A DNA stretch of 64,000 nucleotides from a virus: the IMG/VR virus record IMGVR_UViG_3300026512_000009, positions 1-64,000 of that record; one strand, written 5' to 3'. Shown here in pieces: positions 17,220-60,937 of the stretch. The notes beneath the pieces are model-generated. The model searched no databases. It saw only the letters and a program-made list of their open reading frames with translations, and had not been told where the DNA came from. Numbering within the stretch: position 1 is the first letter of the stretch; each line of letters begins with the position of its first letter. The translations under genes were made by a program, and so were the position numbers.

Positions 17220-18806
17220 ATGGAAGCCTACACAGTAGAGAGGGAATTAGAGAGTACAGAAATACCCTCTACTGTTGACATATCAATCGATGACTTAACA
17301 TCAAATACACAAATAAATGATGACGGTAACCTTATCGGAGACGGTTCATTTGATAAGTTAATGGAGACAGTAGAGAAGCATATATCGAAACAAGTTGATG
17401 ATGGAAGAATAACTACAGAAGCTTATGCTGAAGTATATTTAAACAGTCTAATTAAAGTACTAGATGTAGCTAATATGTTCGTACTAGAGTCTAAAGTTAA
17501 AAACTATCAAATACAAGAAATAGCAGAAAACACTAAACTTACAGGTAGTAAGAAATTGCTTACAGATAAACAATCAGAATTAGAAACAGCAAATATTGTA
17601 CTAACTAACAGTAAAAGTATGCTTACAGTTAGACAGTTAGGTAGAGAATCTGCATCTATAAATTTGCTAGAAGCTCAAGTAGAAGAACTTAGAAACTATA
17701 AAAGTAAGGAATACAAAGCTAGAACTAACTTAATTGTTAAACAAACAGAAGTAGAGACAGAAAAAGTTAATGAAGTTAAAAATAGAAGTGAATTACTATT
17801 ATCTCAAGTAGGAGAAAGCAATAGTAAAATTAAACTGATTACTGCACAAACAGATACTGAACTAGTATCAAAAGACACAGAAGAAAGTAGAAAAGCTTTA
17901 ATATGTGCACAAACAGGTAATGAGTTAGCTAAAAGAGATAATGTTAAAGCTCATACTGATTTACTTAAAGCACAAAGATCTGTAGAAAGTAGAAAAGCAG
18001 TATTAGTTACTAGTCAGATAAATACAGAAGACCAAAAAACTGAATTAACAAAAATGGAAGTAAACAAGACATTATCTGATACGGCTCTGGTAGATAAAAA
18101 TATAACTTTAACAGAAAAGCAAAAAGAAGAATTAGATAGTAAAATATCTAAGTATACTGCAGAAACTAATTCTTTACTTAATGAAAGAAAACAATTAACA
18201 GAAGCTCAAGTAATCAAAATAAATAAAGATAGTGAAGAAGTAACTAGAAGAATAAAATCTATGCAATATCAAGATGCTTTAACTAATGCTCAAACAGTTA
18301 AAGTAAATAAAGATAACGACGAAATAACTAGAAGAATAAAATCTATGGATTACCAAGACGCTTTAACAGAAGCTCAAATAACAAGAACTCAGACAGAAGA
18401 GGTCTTAACTAAAGTAAAAGTAAACGAAGTAGGAGCTAGGATAGATCATACTAAAGCAGAGATTGACAGTATAGTAAACTATAAGAATAATAATATTCAT
18501 TCTAACACTTTACATAACTATGCTAAAATTAGATCAGCTGATCATCAAAACACACTGTTAACTAAACAAGCAGAAGTAACAGAAAAACAGCAAAACCTGA
18601 TAGAGAGACAGACTAAAGGATTTGATGATGATGCTAAACTTAGACTACTTAAAGAAGTTTTAGGTAACTGGTCAGTAGCTTATTCAGTAGCACAAGACGA
18701 CGTTATACCAGATTCAATTAAGTCAAATCCGATAGATAGTGTTACTAAAAATCTATTCGACAGTTTAGGTGTTGAAAACCAAGATGATCCGTTAGGTGAA
18801 GACTAA
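17220..18806 (+). CDS. Long coiled-coil virion protein with repeats
   Basis: 528 residues, dominated by helical heptads with recurring Gln-Thr and Ala-Gln pairs (ITAQTDTELV, ICAQTGNELAK, TNAQTVKVN, TEAQITRTQ). Two adjacent units near residues 335-390 are nearly identical 28-residue repeats containing ITRRIKSM and YQDALT, also repeated at DNA level 84 bases apart (18241 and 18325). This resembles rod-like internal or tail proteins of podoviruses. It lies directly before the ACP gene. Confidence 0.6.
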   Translation: MEAYTVERELESTEIPSTVDISIDDLTSNTQINDDGNLIGDGSFDKLMETVEKHISKQVDDGRITTEAYAEVYLNSLIKVLDVANMFVLESKVKNYQIQEIAENTKLTGSKKLLTDKQSELETANIVLTNSKSMLTVRQLGRESASINLLEAQVEELRNYKSKEYKARTNLIVKQTEVETEKVNEVKNRSELLLSQVGESNSKIKLITAQTDTELVSKDTEESRKALICAQTGNELAKRDNVKAHTDLLKAQRSVESRKAVLVTSQINTEDQKTELTKMEVNKTLSDTALVDKNITLTEKQKEELDSKISKYTAETNSLLNERKQLTEAQVIKINKDSEEVTRRIKSMQYQDALTNAQTVKVNKDNDEITRRIKSMDYQDALTEAQITRTQTEEVLTKVKVNEVGARIDHTKAEIDSIVNYKNNNIHSNTLHNYAKIRSADHQNTLLTKQAEVTEKQQNLIERQTKGFDDDAKLRLLKEVLGNWSVAYSVAQDDVIPDSIKSNPIDSVTKNLFDSLGVENQDDPLGED

Positions 18807-18816
18807 AAGGAAAACT

Positions 18817-19077
18817 ATGACTAGAGTAGAAATTAAGAAAATTGTACTACAACTTATAGAGGAAGAGTATGGCACTCCTTCCTTAGATGAGTCTAAAAAG
18901 ATAGTAGATATGGGTATGGATAGTTTTAGTATAGTAAGCTTTTTTCTGCTTATAGACAATGAATTTCATATATTTAAGGATATAGAAGAAGGTACTGATC
19001 CTTTTTCTACTATCGATATAAACAATATAACATTAAAAGAGGTAATAGATATATGTTTCTTAATGAATATAAAATAA
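18817..19077 (+). CDS. Acyl carrier protein (phage-encoded)
   Basis: 86 residues. The signature DMGMDSFSIVSFF with Ser36 matches the ACP phosphopantetheine site (D-x-G-x-DS-hydrophobic), flanked by a preceding helix with KKIVLQLIEEEYG and a following acidic helix with LIDNEF. The start at 18817 follows AAAAGG by 6 bases; an in-frame ATG at 18796 lies inside the preceding gene and lacks a site. After modification by a host phosphopantetheinyl transferase it would carry an acyl chain as a thioester. The next gene, a ketosynthase, overlaps it by 25 bases. Confidence 0.85.
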   Translation: MTRVEIKKIVLQLIEEEYGTPSLDESKKIVDMGMDSFSIVSFFLLIDNEFHIFKDIEEGTDPFSTIDINNITLKEVIDICFLMNIK

Positions 19078-19910
19078 TAACCCCTAGCATAGTAAAAGAT
19101 GGGTATATGGCTATTAAAGATTTTGATGGTAAAGGTATAACTAAATATACTATAAATAAGTTAGGTAAAATAGTTACAGAAGGTACTAGAGTAGCTCTAC
19201 TCTATTTAAGTGGTGGATACCCGTTAGATGATAATGAAACATATTTAACTGATGAAAGTAAGTTAAATTTTGACAGGAAATGTATGCCTGATACTTTAGT
19301 ATATAAGAAATCTATAATAAAGAATTTAGGTAAATGGGTTAATAACATTAAAGGTAATATCGTATATACTAACTTAGTTTCTAATACTTGTGCTACTGGA
19401 ATATATGCTATAGAGCAAGCTAAATTCTTATTAGAAGCTAATAAGGTAGATGAGGTAGTAATTGTGGGTGAAACTAAAATACATTATAATGTTATGAGAT
19501 TGTTCAAAGAACATAGAATTCCTTTAACTTTAGGAGAAGGTGCAGTAGTGTTTAGGTTATCTAATAAACAAGAAGGATATTACATAGATGATATCAAAAC
19601 ACATTATGCTTTTCACACTAATCCATTCTATGTATCAGCTAAAGAGTACGCTAAGGTATTAAGTCCTGCAGATATAGTTAAACCTCATAGTACATTTACA
19701 GAAGTAAATACTAGAGCAGAAGACTTTTTAGGTAAATACGATACTATCGTTACCTATAAACAAAATATAGGACATACTTTAGGTATATCTAGTTTATTAG
19801 AGACAGGTATGTTACTAGGAGATAATCATCTAGTAAATAAAAAAGCAATAGTTATCGCATCTGGTATGGGAGGATTTTATGGTAGTTTCACAATTCAAGA
19901 TTACTCATAA
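19053..19910 (+). CDS. Beta-ketoacyl-ACP synthase-like protein (compact ketosynthase)
   Basis: 285 residues, versus about 400 for standard FabF/FabB. Catalytic features are visible in order: Cys113 in NTCATGIYAIEQA, LGEGAVVFRL at 160-169, His212 in KPHSTFTEV, His241 in QNIGHTLG, and a final SGMGGFYGSFTI near 270, like the GFGGxN loop. This Cys-His-His set is that of elongating, decarboxylating ketosynthases. The N-terminal part is shortened, so dimer or acyl-pocket details must differ. It is coupled to the ACP gene upstream and overlaps the next gene by 32 bases. Substrate and product are unknown. Confidence 0.85.
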   Translation: MFLNEYKIITPSIVKDGYMAIKDFDGKGITKYTINKLGKIVTEGTRVALLYLSGGYPLDDNETYLTDESKLNFDRKCMPDTLVYKKSIIKNLGKWVNNIKGNIVYTNLVSNTCATGIYAIEQAKFLLEANKVDEVVIVGETKIHYNVMRLFKEHRIPLTLGEGAVVFRLSNKQEGYYIDDIKTHYAFHTNPFYVSAKEYAKVLSPADIVKPHSTFTEVNTRAEDFLGKYDTIVTYKQNIGHTLGISSLLETGMLLGDNHLVNKKAIVIASGMGGFYGSFTIQDYS

Positions 19911-20361
19911 GTTATATAAAGTAGAAACATGTACAAGTAAAGAAAATACTACTAAACTAATACATACTTTTCTACCTACTTACTCTATAAGAGAAGATAA
20001 TGAACTGTATATTCCAAGATTGTTGTTATCAATAGCTTCTAATACGTGTTTTAAACTATTAGACGAAAACAATAAAGTATTAGGGATTATTAGTTACATA
20101 ATTAAAGGACATACAGCTGATATGGTATTCATAGGTATAAACAAAAAACTAAATAAATTAGCTGTAGTGCCTTTTTTCTATGCAACTGTTAAAGATACTA
20201 CTATTAAAAGTATGGTAATAAAAGATCATGACAATGTAATATACTTTTCTAGTTTTAGTAAAAGATATGCTAATAAAGCTATTATAGATGTACCTAAAGT
20301 AAAAGAGTACTCAATAAAAGCTATAAATAACTTAAGTAAAGTTGTAGAATGGCTGCAGTAG
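19879..20361 (+). CDS. Unknown third member of the ACP/ketosynthase cassette (acyltransferase?)
   Basis: 160 residues. The start is well supported by GGGAGG ending 5 bases before the ATG at 19879. The middle (residues 46-90) reads as a strand-turn-strand unit, KLLDENNKVLGIISYI, which looks like the early core of a GNAT fold. Size is close to HlyC-type ACP-dependent lysine acyltransferases (about 170 residues), with a conserved-looking HKLY near residue 10. This resemblance is weak and is inference from context. It overlaps the following virion gene by 13 bases, so both are probably made together. Confidence 0.5.
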   Translation: MVVSQFKITHKLYKVETCTSKENTTKLIHTFLPTYSIREDNELYIPRLLLSIASNTCFKLLDENNKVLGIISYIIKGHTADMVFIGINKKLNKLAVVPFFYATVKDTTIKSMVIKDHDNVIYFSSFSKRYANKAIIDVPKVKEYSIKAINNLSKVVEWLQ

Positions 20362-23027
20362 TTAATGTAGTAAAAGGTACTTATCACGCTGTCAATAAAG
20401 CAGCTCAAGAAGCTTATGATGCAGTAAAAGATGCTGCAGTTTTCGTATGGCAGGATGTAATATCTGCTTCAATAGAGATAGTAGTAGGATTATTTGGTAT
20501 TAAAGATAAGGATGTAGTATCTGTAGCGTTAGGAGTAAATAGAGTTTTTAAAGATGACTATAATATAAGTAAAGATATAATAAGAGCTAAAATAGTAGAG
20601 ATTAGAAGTCCTGATAGAGTAGATGCTTTTAAAGACGAGTTTCTAGCTAATATAAAAATACCTTCTGGTAGATTAAAGAAGTTTTTTAATTATTGTATAG
20701 AGGATACTAATATAGGTACACCTCAATTAGATTTCTCTAGTTCTAAAGCTAACGATGATGTTATACAAGAAAAGCTAGATAACGTGGAAGATTCAGATGG
20801 TCAATATATCAAGTTTTATCAAGCTAAACAAATAGATGCTTTTACTTTATGTAGATTTAAAATGCGAGATAACTATGATTATGAAGGCTATAGAGATGGA
20901 TTTACTTACGATAACCACGATGATTACGAAATAGAGTCTATTACTGTAAATTCTGATAATATGGATATTGATATTAGACGTAAACATTTAACTAGATATG
21001 AATATTTTAACTTAACTAAGAGTCAATCAGAAATAGAAAAAGGTCATGAAATCTATTATATAAAATTTAAAGGCTCTAAACACGAAGAAGGTACTGATTT
21101 ATTTATTAGTTTTGATGGTATAGACATTAATATAGACTCAGATGCTGATACTAGATTAGAGATCATGTTAAATTGGATAGAGCAGTATAACGATCAATCA
21201 GGTAGAACTTTTGATATATGGGTAGCATATGAAGATACAGAAGACGATACTGATTATGTAAAACTGTTTTTAGTATCCGTAGATAAAGATGAAGACATAG
21301 ACGATTTAACTGACGGTTCTTTTGTTATACAACAACAGGATGATGATAATTTCTCTATTTATAGTACGACTCTATTAATGGATTCAGGAGACGATAATAA
21401 AGGAGATGCTACTTTTACAGGGGTAAAGGTAGAGGAGTATGAAGCTAATGAGAAATGGGAATATCCTGATGATCCTACTAATACAACTAGCAAATACACT
21501 AGACTGACTAATATCGATATAATTGCAAGTGATGATGATTTAGATGAAAGTGTAGATACAGTACACAGTAGTACTGTAGAAGAAGTGACTTATACAGATA
21601 GTAATACTATAACAGAAGATTATACGTTTAATGAAGATGATTTATATTTATACTTCGAATTTAGTGAAGATGAAGATTCTAAAGATAAGTTTAACATATC
21701 TTTATATAACCTTACAGCTAACGATGAAGAAGATTTAGCCTTGACTAGAGATAGCATAAAAGTATTAGATACTATGCCTGTAATCATTATAAGAAATGAT
21801 GGAGAGTTTTGGGATAAAGATTATGATGAAAACGTGTATAATTCACAAGTTAAAGCTTGTAAGCTATTAGGTACTGATTATGATGATGTCATGGACAACC
21901 TAAAAAACAATGAGGATATCGATAAGGTATTAGATGCCTATATATGGTTTTACATACAACCTAACGATCCAGACGAAATAGTAAGTAAATATTTGTATAC
22001 TATGACTGAATTCATTCATAATCAAAATACTTCATGGAGTACTGAAGATTTAACTATTACAGGTAAACGATTATTACCTTACAGGTATAAGAAAATAGAT
22101 TGTGTACTGATATGGGATACTTTAGATAAAGTTTATGTAAATGATGCTGAGAAAGGTGATAGAACTTATGAACATGAAATAACAGATGATTACCTTAAAG
22201 TACGTAAATGGGTAGATGATACTTCTTATTTTGAATATACTTTTAATGCTATATATAGTATGGTATTTATAACTAATGGGGATTATAAAGGTATGGTTAA
22301 TGATAAACCTACATCTGACAATTTTCCTTTTCCTGTAGCTTATAGTATTATATCTGAGTTTACTCCTATAGAAAAAAGTCAAATAATGTACAAATCATTA
22401 AAGCTTTGTACTAATGCTCTAGATGTACAACACTTAGCTTGGTATCAAACAGAAGAATTTGGTATATTCTTAGAAGTGTTAACAATAGTTATTATAATAG
22501 CTGTTAGTATTCTTACACTTGGTGCAGGTACTGAAGCAGCTATAGCTATAGGAGAAGCTTTATTGCTTATGATAGCAGTAAAGAAAACTATAAAAGTTAT
22601 AAATAAAAATGTTAAAGTACCTTGGCTTAGAGCAGCTTTAGACGTATTTGTACTAACCCTAGCTTCTATGGCAGGAGACTGGGATGATGTAATATATGCT
22701 GTTACTACTACTGCTGCTATTACAGCTTACGGGACACAGACTTATTATCAAGCTAAACTAGAACAAGAACAAGGAAAGCAAGAAGACTTCTTAGAAAGAG
22801 CAGAAAAACGATTTGAAGAAATGTATAATAAATTTGAAGAGTTGGATGATAGTTATCTAACTACTGACTTTTTAGCTTGGTTAGAACAAACAAATGGTAT
22901 AGCTAAAATAGTACCAGAGTACACTCCTTTAGATAGTCAAAGGTATAAAGCTGTATCTATGCAAACAGATTATACTTTATTGTTTGATACTACGAGTAAA
23001 GTACAAGTAGATTTACCTCGATACTAA
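20349..23027 (+). CDS. Large virion protein with C-terminal hydrophobic segments
   Basis: 892 residues. The N-terminus is amphipathic (AAVVNVVKGTYHAVNKAAQ, then an aliphatic VVGLFGI segment). The middle 550 residues are acidic and beta-rich. From about residue 703 there is a long hydrophobic stretch (FLEVLTIVIIIAVSILTLG, then an Ala/Ile-rich segment), and a second near 761-800, followed by a charged coil. This layout suits a tail or ejection protein that inserts in a membrane. It is coupled to the ACP/ketosynthase cassette, which makes it the first candidate for acylation. Family not recognised. Confidence 0.6.
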   Translation: MAAVVNVVKGTYHAVNKAAQEAYDAVKDAAVFVWQDVISASIEIVVGLFGIKDKDVVSVALGVNRVFKDDYNISKDIIRAKIVEIRSPDRVDAFKDEFLANIKIPSGRLKKFFNYCIEDTNIGTPQLDFSSSKANDDVIQEKLDNVEDSDGQYIKFYQAKQIDAFTLCRFKMRDNYDYEGYRDGFTYDNHDDYEIESITVNSDNMDIDIRRKHLTRYEYFNLTKSQSEIEKGHEIYYIKFKGSKHEEGTDLFISFDGIDINIDSDADTRLEIMLNWIEQYNDQSGRTFDIWVAYEDTEDDTDYVKLFLVSVDKDEDIDDLTDGSFVIQQQDDDNFSIYSTTLLMDSGDDNKGDATFTGVKVEEYEANEKWEYPDDPTNTTSKYTRLTNIDIIASDDDLDESVDTVHSSTVEEVTYTDSNTITEDYTFNEDDLYLYFEFSEDEDSKDKFNISLYNLTANDEEDLALTRDSIKVLDTMPVIIIRNDGEFWDKDYDENVYNSQVKACKLLGTDYDDVMDNLKNNEDIDKVLDAYIWFYIQPNDPDEIVSKYLYTMTEFIHNQNTSWSTEDLTITGKRLLPYRYKKIDCVLIWDTLDKVYVNDAEKGDRTYEHEITDDYLKVRKWVDDTSYFEYTFNAIYSMVFITNGDYKGMVNDKPTSDNFPFPVAYSIISEFTPIEKSQIMYKSLKLCTNALDVQHLAWYQTEEFGIFLEVLTIVIIIAVSILTLGAGTEAAIAIGEALLLMIAVKKTIKVINKNVKVPWLRAALDVFVLTLASMAGDWDDVIYAVTTTAAITAYGTQTYYQAKLEQEQGKQEDFLERAEKRFEEMYNKFEELDDSYLTTDFLAWLEQTNGIAKIVPEYTPLDSQRYKAVSMQTDYTLLFDTTSKVQVDLPRY

Positions 23028-28601: not shown

Positions 28602-31600
28602 ATGAGTTGTATAACTAAAGAAGAATTTGAAAAGTATTTTACTACAATTGATAAAGAAGCTACTAAAGAAATGTTAGCTGAAATGTTGCATAGAAGACCT
28701 AAGTTTTCTATATGGGATATAAAAGCAGAAGACATTACAACATTAATTAAAGATATAAAAAGTAAAGTAGGATATGAAATAGCTTCTATACCTACTGTAT
28801 TAGATAATATGACTAAAGTTAGAATGAAAAGATTATTCTGGGAAGGTAATAGGGAAGTCTTAAATGAAAGCTTTTATGATATATTCAGTAATGATGTTAA
28901 CGTAAAAGAGAATATCATTACTATGAAACATATAATAGACAGTATAAGTAGTGAATTAGCTAAAGTTGATAGAGAAGGTTTAGATGTAAATAGTATTGTA
29001 AATAAAGAAACAGGTACTGTAAATATTCCTTTAGCTAGATTAGCTACCGTAATCGGTAGAGAGATAGCATATACTCAAGGAATAGCAACTAAAGAGAATG
29101 GTAAATTAACTAAAGAAGAAGCTGCTTATAGAGAGATGCTATATTATAAGATAGGTATAGAACAAATAGAAAGACTAGAAAGACAAGGAATAGTAAAGAC
29201 TGGAGAATTACCTGTAGTAAATGATTTCTATTCTGAAGAAACTAAAGGTAAAGTAAATGTAACTAATATGCCTTCTGTATCTTTAGTGTTAGACAGGTCA
29301 ATGTTTAATGCTGGAGAGATAGCAGATTTTAAAAAGGCATTGTTTAAAGGCTATAACGAATTAATAGGTAATAAATTATATACTGCACTTAACAGTACTA
29401 TAAATCCACTAAGTAGATTAGTTAGAGAGACTTTAATTACTTATCCTCCTAAGGAAAAACCTTCAGCTAAAGAATTAGCTAAAGGAGATTACATGAAAGT
29501 AACAAATCTTAATAAATTGTTTAGGGATATTATGGAGACAGTAGATCTTAAACTAGATAAATCTTTTACTGATATGTTATTAACATTAGCTAGAGAATAT
29601 GAAAACAATATGGATAAACCTTTTAGTACATTCATTAGAGAGTCTAACTTACCTGAAGTTGCTAATATAGCTAAAGTGTTAGGTTTACATGATACACACA
29701 GTAAAGCTAATAAGACATCTACATTAGGTCAGAATGTATCTATGATGAGTCCTGTAGAGTCTGCAGTTAACTGGTTAATAGATCAAAAACTAGAAGAAGG
29801 TAGTTACCCTGAAGAAATTAAATGGTTTCCTACATATGCATTTGTAAGGAATGCTAGATTACATGACTTAAACAGTTTTCTTAACGCTCAGCTAGAAAAG
29901 TTTGTTAGGGGAGCCATTAGATTAGGAGATCCTGTAACAATAGAAAAAGGAAGTATTGCAGAACAAGTTATGTATGCAGGTATAGAAGAGGTATTAGATG
30001 TAACTAAAGATGGTCAAACTGCAGAACAGGCTATAACAGAATTAGTAAACACTATTAAAGATTTAGATAAGAATAATAAAGATGATATATTTTATATCAA
30101 AGGTTTTGTTAATGCTATAGTAGAGGAGAAGGCTACAGAGAGAGCTTTATTAGATAAGATAGCTAGATTAATAAATACAGGTAAAGCATTTAAAGGACAA
30201 ATGCCTACTGAAGTATACAAAGCACTTATAGGTATAGCAGACTTAGTAAAAGCTAAAGATGAAAACACAATCAATACAACGTTTAATGTAGAACCGGATG
30301 CTACAGCTAGTGGGTTTTCTATTATGATTATGCAGAAATTAAATACAGCTAATCCAGAACAAAGAGCAGCATTAATAGAATTAGCTAAAGGTTTAGGTAT
30401 ATTTAAAAGAGATAAAGATACTAAAACAGTAAGAGATCCTTACCAGTTAGCAGAAGAAGGTATTAAAAGAATATTAAACAATGAAACTAAATCAAATACA
30501 GAACTAGATTTCTTAGATGAAATAGATAGTGAACTTAATGAAGATACAGACATTGAAAACAAGAAAGAAAAACTAAAAGATTTATTAGATAGTGGTATAT
30601 TTAGAAATTTAAGAGATATAGCTAAAATACCTACAGTATCTCTTATATATCAACAATCAAAATCAGGAGCTAGAAGTTCAATAGCTAAAGATATAGCAGA
30701 TACTTTAATTACAGCTTTAGAAAAAGGAGATGTAGAAGGTAGAAAAAAAGCAAATAAGTATGTAACTAAATTACTAGAAAATGAACATCTACCTGAAAAC
30801 TATAATCCTTTAGAAGACTCAGCCCTAAAACGTAAACTTATTAAAGTTTTAAAATCTAAAGGACATATTCCTGAAATCTTATATTCTATTATCGAAGAAG
30901 AGGCTAAAGGTAAATATTTTGAGTCTTTCGATGAAAGAACTAAAGCTATGTTTGATGTAGCTAAGAATTTATCAACTAAGTTTAACATACCTTTAAAAAT
31001 ACTACCTGCTTTAACAGCAATAGATTTCCGTAATGGAAGAAGAAGAGCAGACTTTAAAGACTTAATGCAATACGGTATTCCTTTAATGAAAAGAAATAAC
31101 GTTATAGAAGAAGTTACTGATGAGAATGGTAATCCATATCAAGTAATGAGAGTAGAAGAAGTACCTCTGTTTACTACATTCGGTACATTAACTACACACA
31201 GTACAGATGAAGCTATATTAGCTAAAGCAACAATAGCTACTAAAAAAAGAGTAGGTAAAGATTTTAATATATACGGTATTCAAGATGCAATAATTGCTGA
31301 TCCTAATATAGCAGCTATATTCCAAGAAGAGTATATAAAAGCTACTAAAGATGTGTTATTAGATTATGACACTAAAGAAGAACTACTTAAATCTATGGAA
31401 TTAATGGTAGCTGAAATAGAGAGTAGAAAATTAGAAGAGAAAGATAAAGAAAGTTTAAAAGCAGCTAAAACTTTTATTAATAATATTAAACAAGAAATAG
31501 CAGAAGGTAAAACACAAAAACAAACATTAATTGATTCTATGTTTGATGAGGATAGTAGTTATTTATTCGGGTTTGAAGTAGAAGCAAAACCTAAAAAAGT

Positions 31601-34600
31601 TAAAACTAAAAAAATACATAAGGCTAAATCTAGATCAGGATTGTCTAAATGGATGGAGAAATTAAAAGACGAGTCAGAATTTATACGAAGAGTAGGGTAT
31701 GAAGGTCTATTACCTGAGTTTAAAGTAGACCCTAATATGTCAGAAGATGCTAAGTATGATCCTACAACAGATACTGTATATGTAAAAGATAAAAAATTAT
31801 TAACTAAAGAAGTGATAGAACACGAAATTGCACATGCAATAGTAAGTGGATATATAAATGAAAGAGCTACTAAAACTAATTTCCATGAAGTACATAATGT
31901 CAGAAATAGTAAAGATATAAACTTACACCATATTACAGTCGCTTTAGATTTACTAACTAAAACAATGAGTGATGACAATAGAATGCAACATATTAAGTCT
32001 TATGAAAAAGTACAAGATCAAATTAATGAATTTGTTACTTTATATACAACAGATAAAGATTTTAGAGATAAAGTAAATAACCGTTTAACTAAACATACAG
32101 AAAAGAGTAATAAGAAAAGACTAGGAGATAGCCTTATAGCTTATTTAACTAATATTGCGTTTAGATTAAGAGCAGTATTAAAAGCTTTTATGAAAGGAGA
32201 TTTTAAAAACTATACTGAAAGTACTAAGTACAAAAAAGATATAATGTTTAAAACTAAAAACGGAGAAGAAGTGTTTAACCTTAGTCCTGACTTATTAGCT
32301 AAATCTGTATCCTCTACTATAAACAAAGGGTTTTTATATAGAGCTGTATCTTCTAAAACATCTAATGGTAGTGTTATGTACAAAGATAAGAAAGTAGATG
32401 AAATTTATAAGGATGATCACCAGAATTATACACCAAAGAAAAGAGTAGATGATAGAATTGAACAAGCTACTCTTATTAGAGCAAATGAAGCTATTAGAGC
32501 AGCTTTTGTTAATAAAGGAGAAGCATTAAGCGTTAAAGCTTTAAAAGAAATACATAAGAAACTTAAAAATAAGTTTCCTGTATATGCTACAGCTTTTGAT
32601 AAAGTAATGGAGTTGTACGAAGAAAATACTCCTTTACAGAAGATACTACACTATACAAATATTAAACCTTTAGCTGATAGTAAAACTAAAAATGAATTAC
32701 TATCTCTATATCAAAATATTATAGAAGATAGTAGTAGAATGATCGATGAAGGTATGGTTAGATTTGAAGAAGCTACTAAAAACTTAACTAAAGAAGAGAA
32801 GAGTTTATTAGATAAAACAGTTAATAAAGTACCTTTACATAGTTATTATGACTTACCTATAAACGTAAGAAATAAACCTATAGAAGAAGCTTTAGATATG
32901 TATTCTAATGACTTTAATAGAAGAGAGTTTGGGTTATTAGATGAAATAGCTGAAGTAGTAGTAAACAAAAAAGTAGGTAAAAACTTAGTATATAATACAT
33001 ATGAATTATTCGGTGATAACCATAATGCAGAAGCAGTAGTTACTTTATTAAGTATTAAGAAGTTAGCAGAGAAAGAAAAAACTACTACTGATAATATAAA
33101 ACAGTTACTAGAACATAAAGACCTAAAAAACATATTATCTGATAATGCATTAGCTTTAAGGTCTTATACACATAAAGTACATAATAATAAAGGTAATACT
33201 AAATCATTAAGGTATGTACATCAAACATTCAACAGGAAAGTAGCTAAAGAGAAAATAGAAACTAAAGTCATAACTAGAGATGAATTAGATAATTACGATT
33301 TAATTGAGGAAAATGGATGGAAGGTATTAAGAAAACCTACAGATACTACTATAGGAATTATATATAGAAAAGTTTATGATGATGTAACTACTAAAGGTAT
33401 AGGAACAGATATTAGGTACAACCAACAAGATGTTTATGTACCAGACCATATCATAATGAAGTATAAACGTAATCTAGAAGCTAATAATGTAGTTACAATA
33501 AACAGAGAGTCTAAGAAAGAAAGAAAGTTCAAAATAGTTTTAACTGAAGAAGAGGAGAATACTTTAGGTTATATGACTGATGCTAAAGATGTAGTTATTA
33601 GATCTACACAACATATGGCAACAGCTAACGACACTATAGTTATTAGAGATAGATTATTGGAAGAGTCTTTAACTATGAAGATAGGTTCTCTTAACGATCC
33701 TAGACTTAATAATCTATTGAATTTAATTAAAGCACAAGACATAGATCATCCATACTTTATAAAATTAGGTACAGATTTACATTATGAGGATTTACCTAAA
33801 GAAGTAAAACAAAAATATATCCTTAAACCTAAAGTATTATCTAATGTACAAAACTTTAATGAAAATGTAACATTAGTTAGAAAAGATATAAGTTATTGGT
33901 TATTAGGAGAAAAACAAGATAGTATCTTTAAATCTGAAAAATTAAGAATTACTAGTAAAGTGTTTAAACATATAGTATCTAGTGCTAAATTAGGTATGGT
34001 TATAGCTAACCCTAAGAAGATCGGAGCTGATATCATTTCTAATAATGAGTATTTAGCAACTATGGGAGTACCTGTAACTAAAATAGCTCAATACGGTCAT
34101 AGAATTATGAAAGAGATGGGAACATTAGATGAAGTAAGATTAGATATGGTACTTAAAAGATATAAATATAATATATTAAGAGAGTCTAGTGGATTTACTA
34201 CAGAAGAGATTAGGAAAGCAGAGAAAGAATATTTAGAGGCTAGAGATAGATTTGATAACCATCCTATGGCTAACGCAGTTAAGAACGGGTTTATTAACTC
34301 TATTAGTTCAGATGTAATCAATAACTCATATACAGAGACTATATCAGGATTACAAGCTGATATCGAAACAGTATTACAAAAGTTATTATTAGATAAGAAC
34401 GGTAACAATACTCTAGTTGCTAAGGGTATAATGAAGTTAGCTAAGTTTGGTTACAACTTAGAAGAAGTATTAGGAGGAATAGCTAAACCTTTAGGTAAAT
34501 TTGAAAGCACTAAAATATTTGAAGAGAGGTTGAAAACTGCTATGGAACACATAGCTAAGTATAAGAAAGAAGATGATGTAGTATCTTATGTACAACAATT

Positions 34601-35030
34601 CTTATTGTCTCCTAAATCAGAAATTGTAAAAACAGGTGTAATGATGAATGACTTATCAGATATTGTAGCTAAAGAAACTTACTATAGACATCTAAGAGAT
34701 GTAGGAGTAAGCCATAAAGAAGCAGTAGTTAAAGTTATACAAGCATTTCCTGACTATAAAGAAGAAATGCCTATAGAGATAAAAGCTTTATCTGATTACG
34801 GTATTTTAATGTTCCCAGCTTATTGGATAAGAATACAAAAAGTAGTTTATAATATGGTAAAAAATAGATTATTATCATTTGGTATAGGAGAGATTGCTTA
34901 TAATGCTTTAGGTATAGAAGATCAATCTATATTTAATAGTAATATATTTAGTAAATACGAACTTATAAATAATCCATTCGATTTAGTAAATATAAATGCA
35001 GTTATACCAACTAAATTGAACCCTCTTTAA
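28602..35030 (+). CDS. Giant ejection-type virion protein with HExxH metalloprotease motif
   Basis: 2142 residues, the largest gene. At residues 1074-1078 the sequence VIEHEIAHAIVSGY is a zincin HExxH site; candidate third ligands follow in a His-rich segment ending HEVHNV about 20 residues on. The C-terminal 130 residues (with ALSDYGILMFPAYWIRIQKV) look like the end of other giant podovirus ejection proteins. I searched for T7/N4-type RNA polymerase motifs and found none, so it is not an N4-like virion polymerase. The protease part could open cell envelope proteins or process virion proteins during entry. Confidence 0.7.
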   Translation: MSCITKEEFEKYFTTIDKEATKEMLAEMLHRRPKFSIWDIKAEDITTLIKDIKSKVGYEIASIPTVLDNMTKVRMKRLFWEGNREVLNESFYDIFSNDVNVKENIITMKHIIDSISSELAKVDREGLDVNSIVNKETGTVNIPLARLATVIGREIAYTQGIATKENGKLTKEEAAYREMLYYKIGIEQIERLERQGIVKTGELPVVNDFYSEETKGKVNVTNMPSVSLVLDRSMFNAGEIADFKKALFKGYNELIGNKLYTALNSTINPLSRLVRETLITYPPKEKPSAKELAKGDYMKVTNLNKLFRDIMETVDLKLDKSFTDMLLTLAREYENNMDKPFSTFIRESNLPEVANIAKVLGLHDTHSKANKTSTLGQNVSMMSPVESAVNWLIDQKLEEGSYPEEIKWFPTYAFVRNARLHDLNSFLNAQLEKFVRGAIRLGDPVTIEKGSIAEQVMYAGIEEVLDVTKDGQTAEQAITELVNTIKDLDKNNKDDIFYIKGFVNAIVEEKATERALLDKIARLINTGKAFKGQMPTEVYKALIGIADLVKAKDENTINTTFNVEPDATASGFSIMIMQKLNTANPEQRAALIELAKGLGIFKRDKDTKTVRDPYQLAEEGIKRILNNETKSNTELDFLDEIDSELNEDTDIENKKEKLKDLLDSGIFRNLRDIAKIPTVSLIYQQSKSGARSSIAKDIADTLITALEKGDVEGRKKANKYVTKLLENEHLPENYNPLEDSALKRKLIKVLKSKGHIPEILYSIIEEEAKGKYFESFDERTKAMFDVAKNLSTKFNIPLKILPALTAIDFRNGRRRADFKDLMQYGIPLMKRNNVIEEVTDENGNPYQVMRVEEVPLFTTFGTLTTHSTDEAILAKATIATKKRVGKDFNIYGIQDAIIADPNIAAIFQEEYIKATKDVLLDYDTKEELLKSMELMVAEIESRKLEEKDKESLKAAKTFINNIKQEIAEGKTQKQTLIDSMFDEDSSYLFGFEVEAKPKKVKTKKIHKAKSRSGLSKWMEKLKDESEFIRRVGYEGLLPEFKVDPNMSEDAKYDPTTDTVYVKDKKLLTKEVIEHEIAHAIVSGYINERATKTNFHEVHNVRNSKDINLHHITVALDLLTKTMSDDNRMQHIKSYEKVQDQINEFVTLYTTDKDFRDKVNNRLTKHTEKSNKKRLGDSLIAYLTNIAFRLRAVLKAFMKGDFKNYTESTKYKKDIMFKTKNGEEVFNLSPDLLAKSVSSTINKGFLYRAVSSKTSNGSVMYKDKKVDEIYKDDHQNYTPKKRVDDRIEQATLIRANEAIRAAFVNKGEALSVKALKEIHKKLKNKFPVYATAFDKVMELYEENTPLQKILHYTNIKPLADSKTKNELLSLYQNIIEDSSRMIDEGMVRFEEATKNLTKEEKSLLDKTVNKVPLHSYYDLPINVRNKPIEEALDMYSNDFNRREFGLLDEIAEVVVNKKVGKNLVYNTYELFGDNHNAEAVVTLLSIKKLAEKEKTTTDNIKQLLEHKDLKNILSDNALALRSYTHKVHNNKGNTKSLRYVHQTFNRKVAKEKIETKVITRDELDNYDLIEENGWKVLRKPTDTTIGIIYRKVYDDVTTKGIGTDIRYNQQDVYVPDHIIMKYKRNLEANNVVTINRESKKERKFKIVLTEEEENTLGYMTDAKDVVIRSTQHMATANDTIVIRDRLLEESLTMKIGSLNDPRLNNLLNLIKAQDIDHPYFIKLGTDLHYEDLPKEVKQKYILKPKVLSNVQNFNENVTLVRKDISYWLLGEKQDSIFKSEKLRITSKVFKHIVSSAKLGMVIANPKKIGADIISNNEYLATMGVPVTKIAQYGHRIMKEMGTLDEVRLDMVLKRYKYNILRESSGFTTEEIRKAEKEYLEARDRFDNHPMANAVKNGFINSISSDVINNSYTETISGLQADIETVLQKLLLDKNGNNTLVAKGIMKLAKFGYNLEEVLGGIAKPLGKFESTKIFEERLKTAMEHIAKYKKEDDVVSYVQQFLLSPKSEIVKTGVMMNDLSDIVAKETYYRHLRDVGVSHKEAVVKVIQAFPDYKEEMPIEIKALSDYGILMFPAYWIRIQKVVYNMVKNRLLSFGIGEIAYNALGIEDQSIFNSNIFSKYELINNPFDLVNINAVIPTKLNPL

Positions 35031-39089: not shown

Positions 39090-39647
39090 TTACTTCTCTA
39101 TAACCCATTTATAACGCATTATGTCATCTTGTGTAAACACATAAGGTTTAACAAAGATTTTTTGTGTTATAGGACAAATATCAACAACATCGATATGGGC
39201 TTCATAATTCACTTCCGTACCTTCTTCAAATACACCTAATAAAGGCGGTCTGTTTATCTTAAATTTACTTCCTGGCACATAAATTAAAAAACTATCTTTC
39301 CAGAGCTTATGTCTCACTCTGTAACCTAATTTCAATAATTCTTTTGCTTCACCAATACTAAAGTCTCCATCTAAAGGTTTATATGGTTTCATTGCTCTGT
39401 TGCTAACAAACCAACAATCTGGATTTTCTGCAATAGGTTCTTCATTGTTATGTATCTCTTCTATATTATTTATATCTCCCATTACTACACCAACAACATC
39501 TCCTGATAATGCTTCCACAATAGCAGGCTTATCTGCTTTTGAAACACCAATAAAGTCATATTTCTTTAGCAGATTATCTAAATCTAACCTTGTTACTTCT
39601 AGCCCTGTATGTATTTTTCCGTCTCTTAAATACTGTTTTATCCTCAT
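39090..39647 (-). CDS. DUF2829 (Tad2-like) protein with N-terminal extension
   Basis: 185 residues. Residues 96-183 have the DUF2829 layout: FSIGEAKELLKLGYRVRHKLW, YVPGSKF, RPPLLGVFEEGTEVNYEAHI and a C-terminal FTQDDIMRYKWVI. DUF2829 is the domain of Tad2, a phage protein known to sequester the cyclic signalling nucleotide of Thoeris defence; some homologues bind CBASS signals. The first 95 residues are an extra domain of unknown type, not part of single-domain Tad2. Anti-defence function is inferred from the family; many DUF2829 proteins are untested. Confidence 0.75.
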   Translation of the reverse strand: MRIKQYLRDGKIHTGLEVTRLDLDNLLKKYDFIGVSKADKPAIVEALSGDVVGVVMGDINNIEEIHNNEEPIAENPDCWFVSNRAMKPYKPLDGDFSIGEAKELLKLGYRVRHKLWKDSFLIYVPGSKFKINRPPLLGVFEEGTEVNYEAHIDVVDICPITQKIFVKPYVFTQDDIMRYKWVIEK

Positions 39648-60115: not shown

Positions 60116-60937
60116 TTAAAACTTAATAGCTTTAATTAACATTTCAAGAGATTTTTTATCTTTAGCTACAGCAAAAAATTTTCCATTATGAATAAATTCT
60201 ACTCCAGGTATCTGTTCTTTAAGAGCTGGATCGATACCTATTTCAAACTCAAAACTTCCTGGTTCTACTGGTACTGCTTGAATTTTATATTTATCTTGTA
60301 CTTTATCATACCAAGCAAAGAAGTTACAATCTGCACCAGTAGCGTCAGTCAGTACTTGATCCCACATAGGAATGAAATCATCTGACCATCTAACAGTTAC
60401 TCTATTATTATAAGTAACACAAACTGTACTTTTTACAGTTTCTGAAGCTTTATTGATTTTGTCTTGTTCACTCTTAAAAGCTGTAATGTATTTAACGGTC
60501 AAATCAACAGCATAATCAAAAGCTTCTTCTTGCTCCTGACTATAAGGATTATCTGTATTTAAGTATTTAATCATGCTAACAAAACTATGAGGTTCAGCTT
60601 TTTCTATACCTATATCGTTTAGGTCTACTTGTACAACTAATTCGCATATACTTGGGTATATATAATCAGCTTCACCTATAACATACTTCCAAATCAACCC
60701 TGCACTAGCCATAGGCACAGTTTTAGGGTCTAAATGGTGATGATCAAACCATTTAATCTCATTATAATGGCTACCTATATCTATTATATAGTCAAAACTA
60801 CCTAATTCTTCAGCTGGTGTTTGATGATTAACTCTTGTAACTTCAAAAGTTTCATCTGTATAAAAGCTTTTTAGTAGTGCTATTGCTACTACTTCGTCTG
60901 CATGAAATATTCCGTTATGTGTTACTATTTTCTTCAT
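60116..60937 (-). CDS. MYG1/GAMP1 family protein (DHH-like phosphoesterase fold)
   Basis: 273 residues, shorter than cellular MYG1 (about 320 or more). Signature THNGIFHADEVVA has His7, His12 and Asp14; WFDHHHLD holds Asp65-His68, and a MASAGLIWKYV segment follows. Eukaryotic MYG1 is reported as a 3'-5' RNA exonuclease. A phage copy could act on host or phage RNA or on small nucleotides. It is transcribed soon after the RNA polymerase and has a 9-bp hairpin at its leader. Confidence 0.8.
   Translation of the reverse strand: MKKIVTHNGIFHADEVVAIALLKSFYTDETFEVTRVNHQTPAEELGSFDYIIDIGSHYNEIKWFDHHHLDPKTVPMASAGLIWKYVIGEADYIYPSICELVVQVDLNDIGIEKAEPHSFVSMIKYLNTDNPYSQEQEEAFDYAVDLTVKYITAFKSEQDKINKASETVKSTVCVTYNNRVTVRWSDDFIPMWDQVLTDATGADCNFFAWYDKVQDKYKIQAVPVEPGSFEFEIGIDPALKEQIPGVEFIHNGKFFAVAKDKKSLEMLIKAIKF

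Follow-up and report, generated by a model that had tools for sequence, protein, structure and literature searches.

A putative acyl carrier protein-dependent acylation cassette between the tail tube and tail plug genes of a Schitoviridae clade

The present analysis concerns a stretch of 64,000 nucleotides (the window), i.e., positions 1 to 64,000 of the 64,123 bases of the virus record IMGVR_UViG_3300026512_000009 from IMG/VR. Its portal, major capsid protein (MCP), tail tube, tail plug and late-gene order are of the N4-like type (Schitoviridae). Between the genes of the tail tube and of the tail plug (gp53), it carries a cassette encoding an acyl carrier protein (ACP), a compact β-ketoacyl-ACP synthase (KS) and a third protein (P3) with a predicted GNAT fold. 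Among the loci fetched, this cassette, devoid of KS in three cases, was found in at least eight divergent Schitoviridae lineages, where it strictly co-occurs with a hydrophobic N-terminal extension of the plug. As a plausible reading that falls a little short of probable, we propose that it is a dedicated ACP-dependent acylation cassette lodged in the tail operon of one Schitoviridae clade, which acylates gp53, most likely at its N-terminal amine. The parts belong to known superfamilies; their combination, a cassette inserted between tail tube and tail plug and a matching plug extension, had no phage counterpart in the literature searched. To our knowledge, no phage encodes its own machinery for the fatty-acylation of a virion protein, and no precedent for lipidated phage virion proteins was found in the open-licence literature.

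Components and distribution of the cassette

The cassette and its two neighbours in the window are the following (lengths in amino acids, aa):

17220-18806, + strand: tail tube protein similar to gp54, 528 aa, flanking the cassette upstream (PHROG 2050, E = 6.2e-30, the N4 gp54 family)
18817-19077, + strand: ACP, 86 aa, ATG start, Ser36 in D-M-G-M-D-S-F (context VDMGMDSFS)
19053-19910, + strand: compact KAS-type KS, 285 aa, with Cys113, His212, Lys236, His241 and Glu250, a GEGA motif and a GMGGFYGS loop
19879-20361, + strand: P3, 160 aa, GNAT-fold putative acyl-ACP:protein acyltransferase (AlphaFold2 (AF2) model and Foldseek), invariant His117 and Ser125
20349-23027, + strand: tail plug of the gp53 family, 892 aa, putative acceptor (PHROG 2220, E = 4.1e-32, the N4 gp53 family)
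20349-20519, + strand: hydrophobic N-terminal extension of the plug, specific to the clade, residues 1-57, starting with M-A-A and ending with FGIKDKDVV

In N4, gp54 is the tail tube and gp53 the tail plug (2025 preprint, PMC12633501). From ACP to KS, P3 and gp53, each start overlaps the preceding stop in the window, and the ACP gene has an additional in-frame GTG start at 18796. Comparison of the window with its near relative L001 revealed purifying selection, with ratios of non-synonymous to synonymous substitution rates (dN/dS) of 0.12 for ACP, 0.08 for KS and 0.11 for P3. Because of these low ratios and of their deep conservation, the open reading frames (ORFs) of the cassette are real genes; the possibility that they are chance ORFs was ruled out by the dN/dS range (0.08-0.12) and by the recurrence of the gene order and of the catalytic residues in distant phages.

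On its sequence features, the first gene encodes an acyl carrier protein, predicted to bear phosphopantetheine and an acyl load. D31, D35 and S36 are invariant in the eight lineages, the phosphopantetheine motif D-S-[LF] being satisfied, and a profile built from the eight lineages matches solved ACPs from PDB (best E = 4.6e-6), among them NodF (1fh1, E = 7.7e-6). Taken alone, the ACPs of the window (17.6 bits) and, just barely, of the Alteromonas phage PT11-V19 (20.7 bits) are under the Pfam cut-off for PP-binding (PF00550, 20.8 bits).

Motifs and profiles likewise identify the 285-aa protein as a compact KAS-type ketosynthase, presumably catalytic, its length comparing with 413 aa for FabF. 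Its Cys113, His212, Lys236, His241 and Glu250 align with the active site of E. coli FabF in a single local alignment that is weak alone, and this Cys-His-Lys-His-Glu set is invariant in the five lineages that encode a KS. Searched against PDB, the profile of these five lineages retrieved solved KAS enzymes (E = 1.2e-4), and all 12 matches at E ≤ 0.1 are ketosynthases. The KS of locus L015 clears the Pfam cut-off of Ketoacyl-synt_C (24.6 vs 20.8); that of the window alone does not. As regards a complete double thiolase fold, the AF2 model of the KS is too poor to rely on (predicted local distance difference test, pLDDT, 49), and many of its weak Foldseek matches are FabH, thiolase or OleA. Both ACP and KS are far in sequence from their E. 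coli counterparts. The idea of recently host-derived metabolic genes was rejected, since a search of 84,980 prokaryote genomes yielded no close relative of the KS and tblastn with the KS gave no match in 50,697 phage records.

P3 is modelled with an acyltransferase-type GNAT fold. The AF2 model (pLDDT 79, predicted template modelling score 0.78) was compared with PDB using Foldseek, and the top 50 matches are all GNAT-fold proteins (best E = 3.7e-4, probabilities mostly 0.97-1.00, template modelling (TM) scores mostly 0.4-0.5). P3 evolves rapidly, its identity between lineages being only 15-30%, and, besides Met1, only His117 and Ser125 are invariant across the eight lineages. The [RQ]xxGx[GA] loop that binds acyl-coenzyme A (CoA) is absent in seven of them, the lone match (residue 75 in L112) not lying at a conserved position; this absence would be expected if the donor is ACP and not CoA. 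We infer that P3 is an ACP-dependent acyltransferase.

The order ACP-KS-P3-gp53 was found in five lineages (window/L001, L003, L014/L015/L016, L112 and L113). The KS shows 94% identity to that of the window in L001, 61% in L003 and 33% in L014, L015 and L016, these three loci being identical across the cassette region. Three other lineages, i.e., the cultured Alteromonas phages PT11-V19 and R22Y and locus L115, display ACP-P3-gp53 without KS. ACP and P3 are always paired and always located between gp54 and gp53, with mostly overlapping genes, in phages whose gp53 proteins are only about 25% identical. Since the KS is missing in three lineages while ACP and P3 are present in all, the latter two appear to be the core of the cassette and the KS an optional component. 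No ACP was found between gp54 and gp53 in those other loci whose sequence extends far enough beyond the capsid gene, nor in ten further phage records. As the loci compared are those fetched among the matches listed by an IMG/VR capsid scan, the cassette clade, of at least eight lineages, may be larger than the sampled set. When the ACP and P3 sequences from the two Alteromonas phages were searched in the 50,697 phage records, they matched only each other or themselves, and an IMG/VR pattern scan with a P3 pattern derived from this pair gave no confirmed match.

All cassette phages form one clade, with a support of 100% in the portal tree and of 98% (Shimodaira-Hasegawa-like approximate likelihood ratio test) in the gp53 tree; the MCP tree was dropped because of the long PT11 branch and the lack of R22Y. 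On the gp53 tree, the distribution of the KS requires two changes. Because the KS occupies an identical slot in both branches, the simplest history would be one ancestral KS lost twice.

These results uphold much of the sequence-only reading of the window. It had described an ACP with Ser36, a KS with Cys113, His212, His241, GEGA and GMGGFYGS, a 160-residue putative acyltransferase and an 892-residue virion protein, all encoded by overlapping genes; they lie where it placed them, multi-lineage profiles support the identities of ACP and KS, the structure check points to an acyltransferase-type fold (GNAT) for the third protein, and the gene order recurs in related phages, apart from the KS in three lineages. 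Thus, two of the three outcomes that it had named as refuting, a third protein unlike any acyltransferase in fold and a lack of co-conservation, did not materialise. The special acyl chain that it proposed would be optional, since three lineages lack the KS.

Several observations were made on the slot itself and on gp54. In vibriophage SBP1, a putative HNH homing endonuclease lies at the gp54/gp53 junction, i.e., in the slot of the ACP cassette (L101 4773-5273, - strand). Among close relatives, the length of the gp54-like tube protein ranges between 303 and 731 aa (window 17220-18806; L001 1072-3267; L003 8936-9847), owing to a repetitive and probably coiled-coil middle region (repeats such as KLLTDxQxxxExxN). 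Furthermore, R22Y, L112 and L113 carry extra tail- or fibre-like genes (108-1,147 aa) directly upstream of gp54 (L012 921-4690; L112 1940-3735; L113 2160-3716).

The tail plug and its N-terminal extension

The window plug is a clear member of the N4 gp53 family (PHROG 2220), with the same C-terminal hydrophobic region and the same position after gp54. In N4, the tail tube is corked by a hydrophobic knot made up of residues 29-56 and 670-716 of gp53 (2025 preprint, PMC12633501). Hydrophobic segments at about 700-751 occur equally in N4 and in most family members devoid of cassette; being family-wide, they were rejected as a special mark of the cassette phages. What distinguishes these phages is a hydrophobic, often amphipathic N-terminal extension of 42-50 residues ending in the marker FGIxDExVV, both being found in each of the nine cassette sequences, which represent eight lineages, but in not one of the 52 others. 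This extension stands in place of the short MGLFS-(K) N-terminus of other family members. Since residues 29-56 of N4 gp53 belong to the knot, the extension probably adjoins an N4-type cork, by analogy with that structure.

The strict co-occurrence of cassette and extension designates gp53 as the proposed acceptor. In the cassette clade, gp53 has no invariant lysine (position 547 is a lysine in seven of the eight lineages) and that of L115 has none within its first 55 residues, which disfavours a lysine acceptor within the extension. The N-terminal amine is favoured because it is the sole acceptor always present there. All cassette phages have Gly, Ala or Ser at position 2, three residues that permit removal of the initiator methionine. 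Gly2 was rejected as a cassette-specific mark, since it is family-wide and since the window and L001 carry Ala2.

In the gp53 homologues of Schitoviridae, such as that of the N4 locus L011, the N-terminus (encoded at 20349-20360 in the window) is nearly always M-G, usually MGLFSxKK or MGFFG. This start resembles an N-myristoylation signal and is also found in phages without the ACP cassette.

The sequence-only reading had also linked the three genes to the 892-residue hydrophobic protein, through its C-terminal segments and through lysine acylation by an HlyC-type enzyme. The association with this protein stands, with the N-terminal extension and not the family-wide C-terminal segments as the special feature. 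The lysine chemistry is disfavoured given the lysine content of gp53, and the HlyC family found no support for P3, Pfam scans of its members giving no HlyC match. Overall, the earlier interpretation is partly supported: its outline, in which acylation machinery is linked to a tail protein, is kept, and its details (tail plug, N-terminus, optional KS) are changed.

Proposed acylation of the plug and rival explanations

According to the proposed mechanism, a host phosphopantetheinyl transferase would convert the phage ACP to its holo form and the acyl chain would come to it from the host fatty-acid system. Where present, the KS would lengthen the ACP-bound chain, with each cycle finished by host reductases and dehydratase, and would thereby set its length or type. 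P3 would then transfer the chain from ACP onto freshly made gp53, the likeliest acceptor being the α-amine bared by methionine removal at the very end of the hydrophobic extension peculiar to this clade. With its acyl chain, the plug would close off the tail tube; set free upon receptor binding, it could insert into the host outer membrane or perturb it. This fuller proposal, in which a phage clade lipidates its own plug by means of an ACP, an optional KS and a GNAT-type transferase in order to seal the tail and/or to act on the outer membrane when the genome is ejected, is rather doubtful as a whole. If true, protein lipidation would join the ways by which tailed phages cross the cell envelope, N-terminal acylation of gp53 being the bacterial-virus counterpart of the N-myristoylated entry proteins of animal viruses. 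It would also account for the dedicated ACP that some N4-like phages require. The reading is directly testable, since two cassette carriers, R22Y and PT11-V19, are cultured lytic phages of marine Alteromonas hosts.

It should also be emphasized that several points weigh against the putative acylation of gp53 by the cassette, which was proposed from sequence and from a predicted fold. Searches of P3 against Pfam, NCBIfam and PDB profiles gave no GNAT match, and its assignment to this fold comes from one AF2 model built from four sequences, with TM scores of about 0.5. Catalytic roles for His117 and Ser125 are guesses. We know of no GNAT-fold protein from T7-type virion operons that acts as an acylating enzyme. 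No ACP-loading enzyme of phage origin was seen among the scanned ORFs. Furthermore, Gly2 is kept by most schitoviruses that lack an ACP and occurs in 51 of 56 distinct gp53 N-termini of the whole family set, so that a small residue at position 2 is not specific to the cassette. Lastly, because all cassette phages form one clade, cassette and extension have one independent origin, and their association may be a single historical event instead of repeated co-evolution.

One alternative, which we consider unlikely, is that ACP and P3 acylate another protein (gp54, the ejection proteins gp52/gp51 or a membrane protein encoded in the lysis region), the proximity of gp53 reflecting shared late timing. 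The late virion genes are indeed all on one strand and probably form one transcript, and gp54 also adjoins the cassette and is highly variable in length (176, 225, 230, 303, 528 or 731 aa). HlyC-type enzymes, which act on internal lysines, would fit this alternative as well. HlyC and related RTX toxin-activating enzymes resemble the proposed system as ACP-dependent acyltransferases of about 170 residues whose target is a membrane-active protein; they differ from it in using the host ACP in place of a dedicated one, and gp53 lacks an invariant lysine. Against this alternative, the strict co-occurrence of the cassette with the plug extension indicates gp53, and P3 adjoins gp53 even in the lineages devoid of KS. 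Whichever the acceptor, a conserved ACP/KS/GNAT cassette maintained by selection and locked between tube and plug is unexplained by present knowledge.

A structural role is likewise improbable. ACP would then serve as a scaffold without catalytic function, as it does in mitochondrial complexes, with P3 as a GNAT-fold chaperone of gp53 comparable to the T7-type internal virion protein A, for which we know of no linked ACP or KS. Some viral Foldseek matches of P3 are indeed annotated as "internal virion protein A" or "host specificity protein A", and share with P3 a GNAT-like fold and a location in a virion operon; this likeness is one of fold. The slot directly before gp53 would suit a cognate chaperone, and so would the fast divergence of P3. 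Nevertheless, the phosphopantetheine serine motif and the full catalytic set of the KS are retained amid divergence elsewhere, and a scaffold role leaves the KS unexplained.

That the product is a small acylated molecule (an N-acyl amino acid or N-acyl signal, FeeM- or LuxI-like), acting on the host or on the community and not on the virion, seems quite improbable. FeeM has a GNAT-like fold and LuxI is likewise of GNAT type. FeeM/FeeL and LuxI-type systems use acyl-ACP as donor for amide formation, as proposed for P3, and FeeM is an example of the N-acyl amino acid synthases that form amides from acyl-ACP (PMC8762209, which refers to Van Wagoner 2006). However, FeeM and LuxI make small molecules, they are not among the top Foldseek matches of P3, and no sequence similarity to P3 was found. 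The association of an ACP, a KS and an N-acyltransferase also follows the logic of Nod factor synthesis (PMC5080398, in which the roles of NodE and NodF are reversed relative to the PDB naming, where 1fh1 is NodF). The rhizobial NodF-NodE-NodA system likewise comprises a specialised small ACP, a dedicated KAS-type KS and an N-acyltransferase using ACP, and the phage ACP profile has NodF as one of its best matches to solved structures. It acylates a chitooligosaccharide, whereas the phage cassette sits in a virion operon and has a KS of about 285 aa that is missing in some lineages; NodA shows no sequence match to P3. All three kinds of genes occur together in five of the eight phage lineages, the N-acyltransferase activity of P3 being putative. 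For the proposed acylation of the plug, NodF/NodE/NodA and FeeM serve as a working analogy, and membership of P3 in those families is not claimed. A small-molecule product also fits poorly with the fixed, mostly overlapping slot between tail tube and plug in all eight lineages, with the correlation with the plug extension, and with the expected late expression, when a lytic phage gains little from a signal.

Phage ACPs have been regarded as auxiliary metabolic genes (R22Y gp30; Rhodobacteraceae prophages), and R22Y, itself a cassette phage, was published with this interpretation of the ACP at the cassette locus (PMC11705849). Therefore, the statement of the sequence-only reading that no such phage system is described holds, in the literature searched, for the module as a whole and not for its ACP. 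That ACP and KS merely tune host fatty-acid synthesis or membrane fluidity is the weakest and a very unlikely explanation, since P3 and the position are constant and the KS, absent from R22Y, PT11-V19 and L115, is not, and since ACP and KS are far from E. coli sequences, with no close KS relative in the prokaryote genomes searched; in the parts of PMC11705849 consulted, the R22Y ACP is read as host metabolism, and P3 (the linked acyltransferase-like gene), the tail-operon position, the conserved neighbours and the plug extension are not brought in. Acylation of the plug, if confirmed, would correct this reading of the R22Y ACP.

Other features of the window

A 2,142-aa protein (28602-35030, + strand) sits where the N4 virion RNA polymerase would be expected; N4 gp50 is far longer (3,500 aa). 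Similarly short proteins occur in the Alteromonas phages R22Y (2,083 aa) and PT11-V19, relatives within the cassette clade. On the other strand, 39090-39647 (-) weakly matched a Thoeris anti-defense 2-like (Tad2) domain, narrowly missing the Pfam cut-off (E = 2.2e-4), and 60116-60937 (-) encodes a protein of the MYG1/UPF0160 exonuclease family (E = 5.4e-26).

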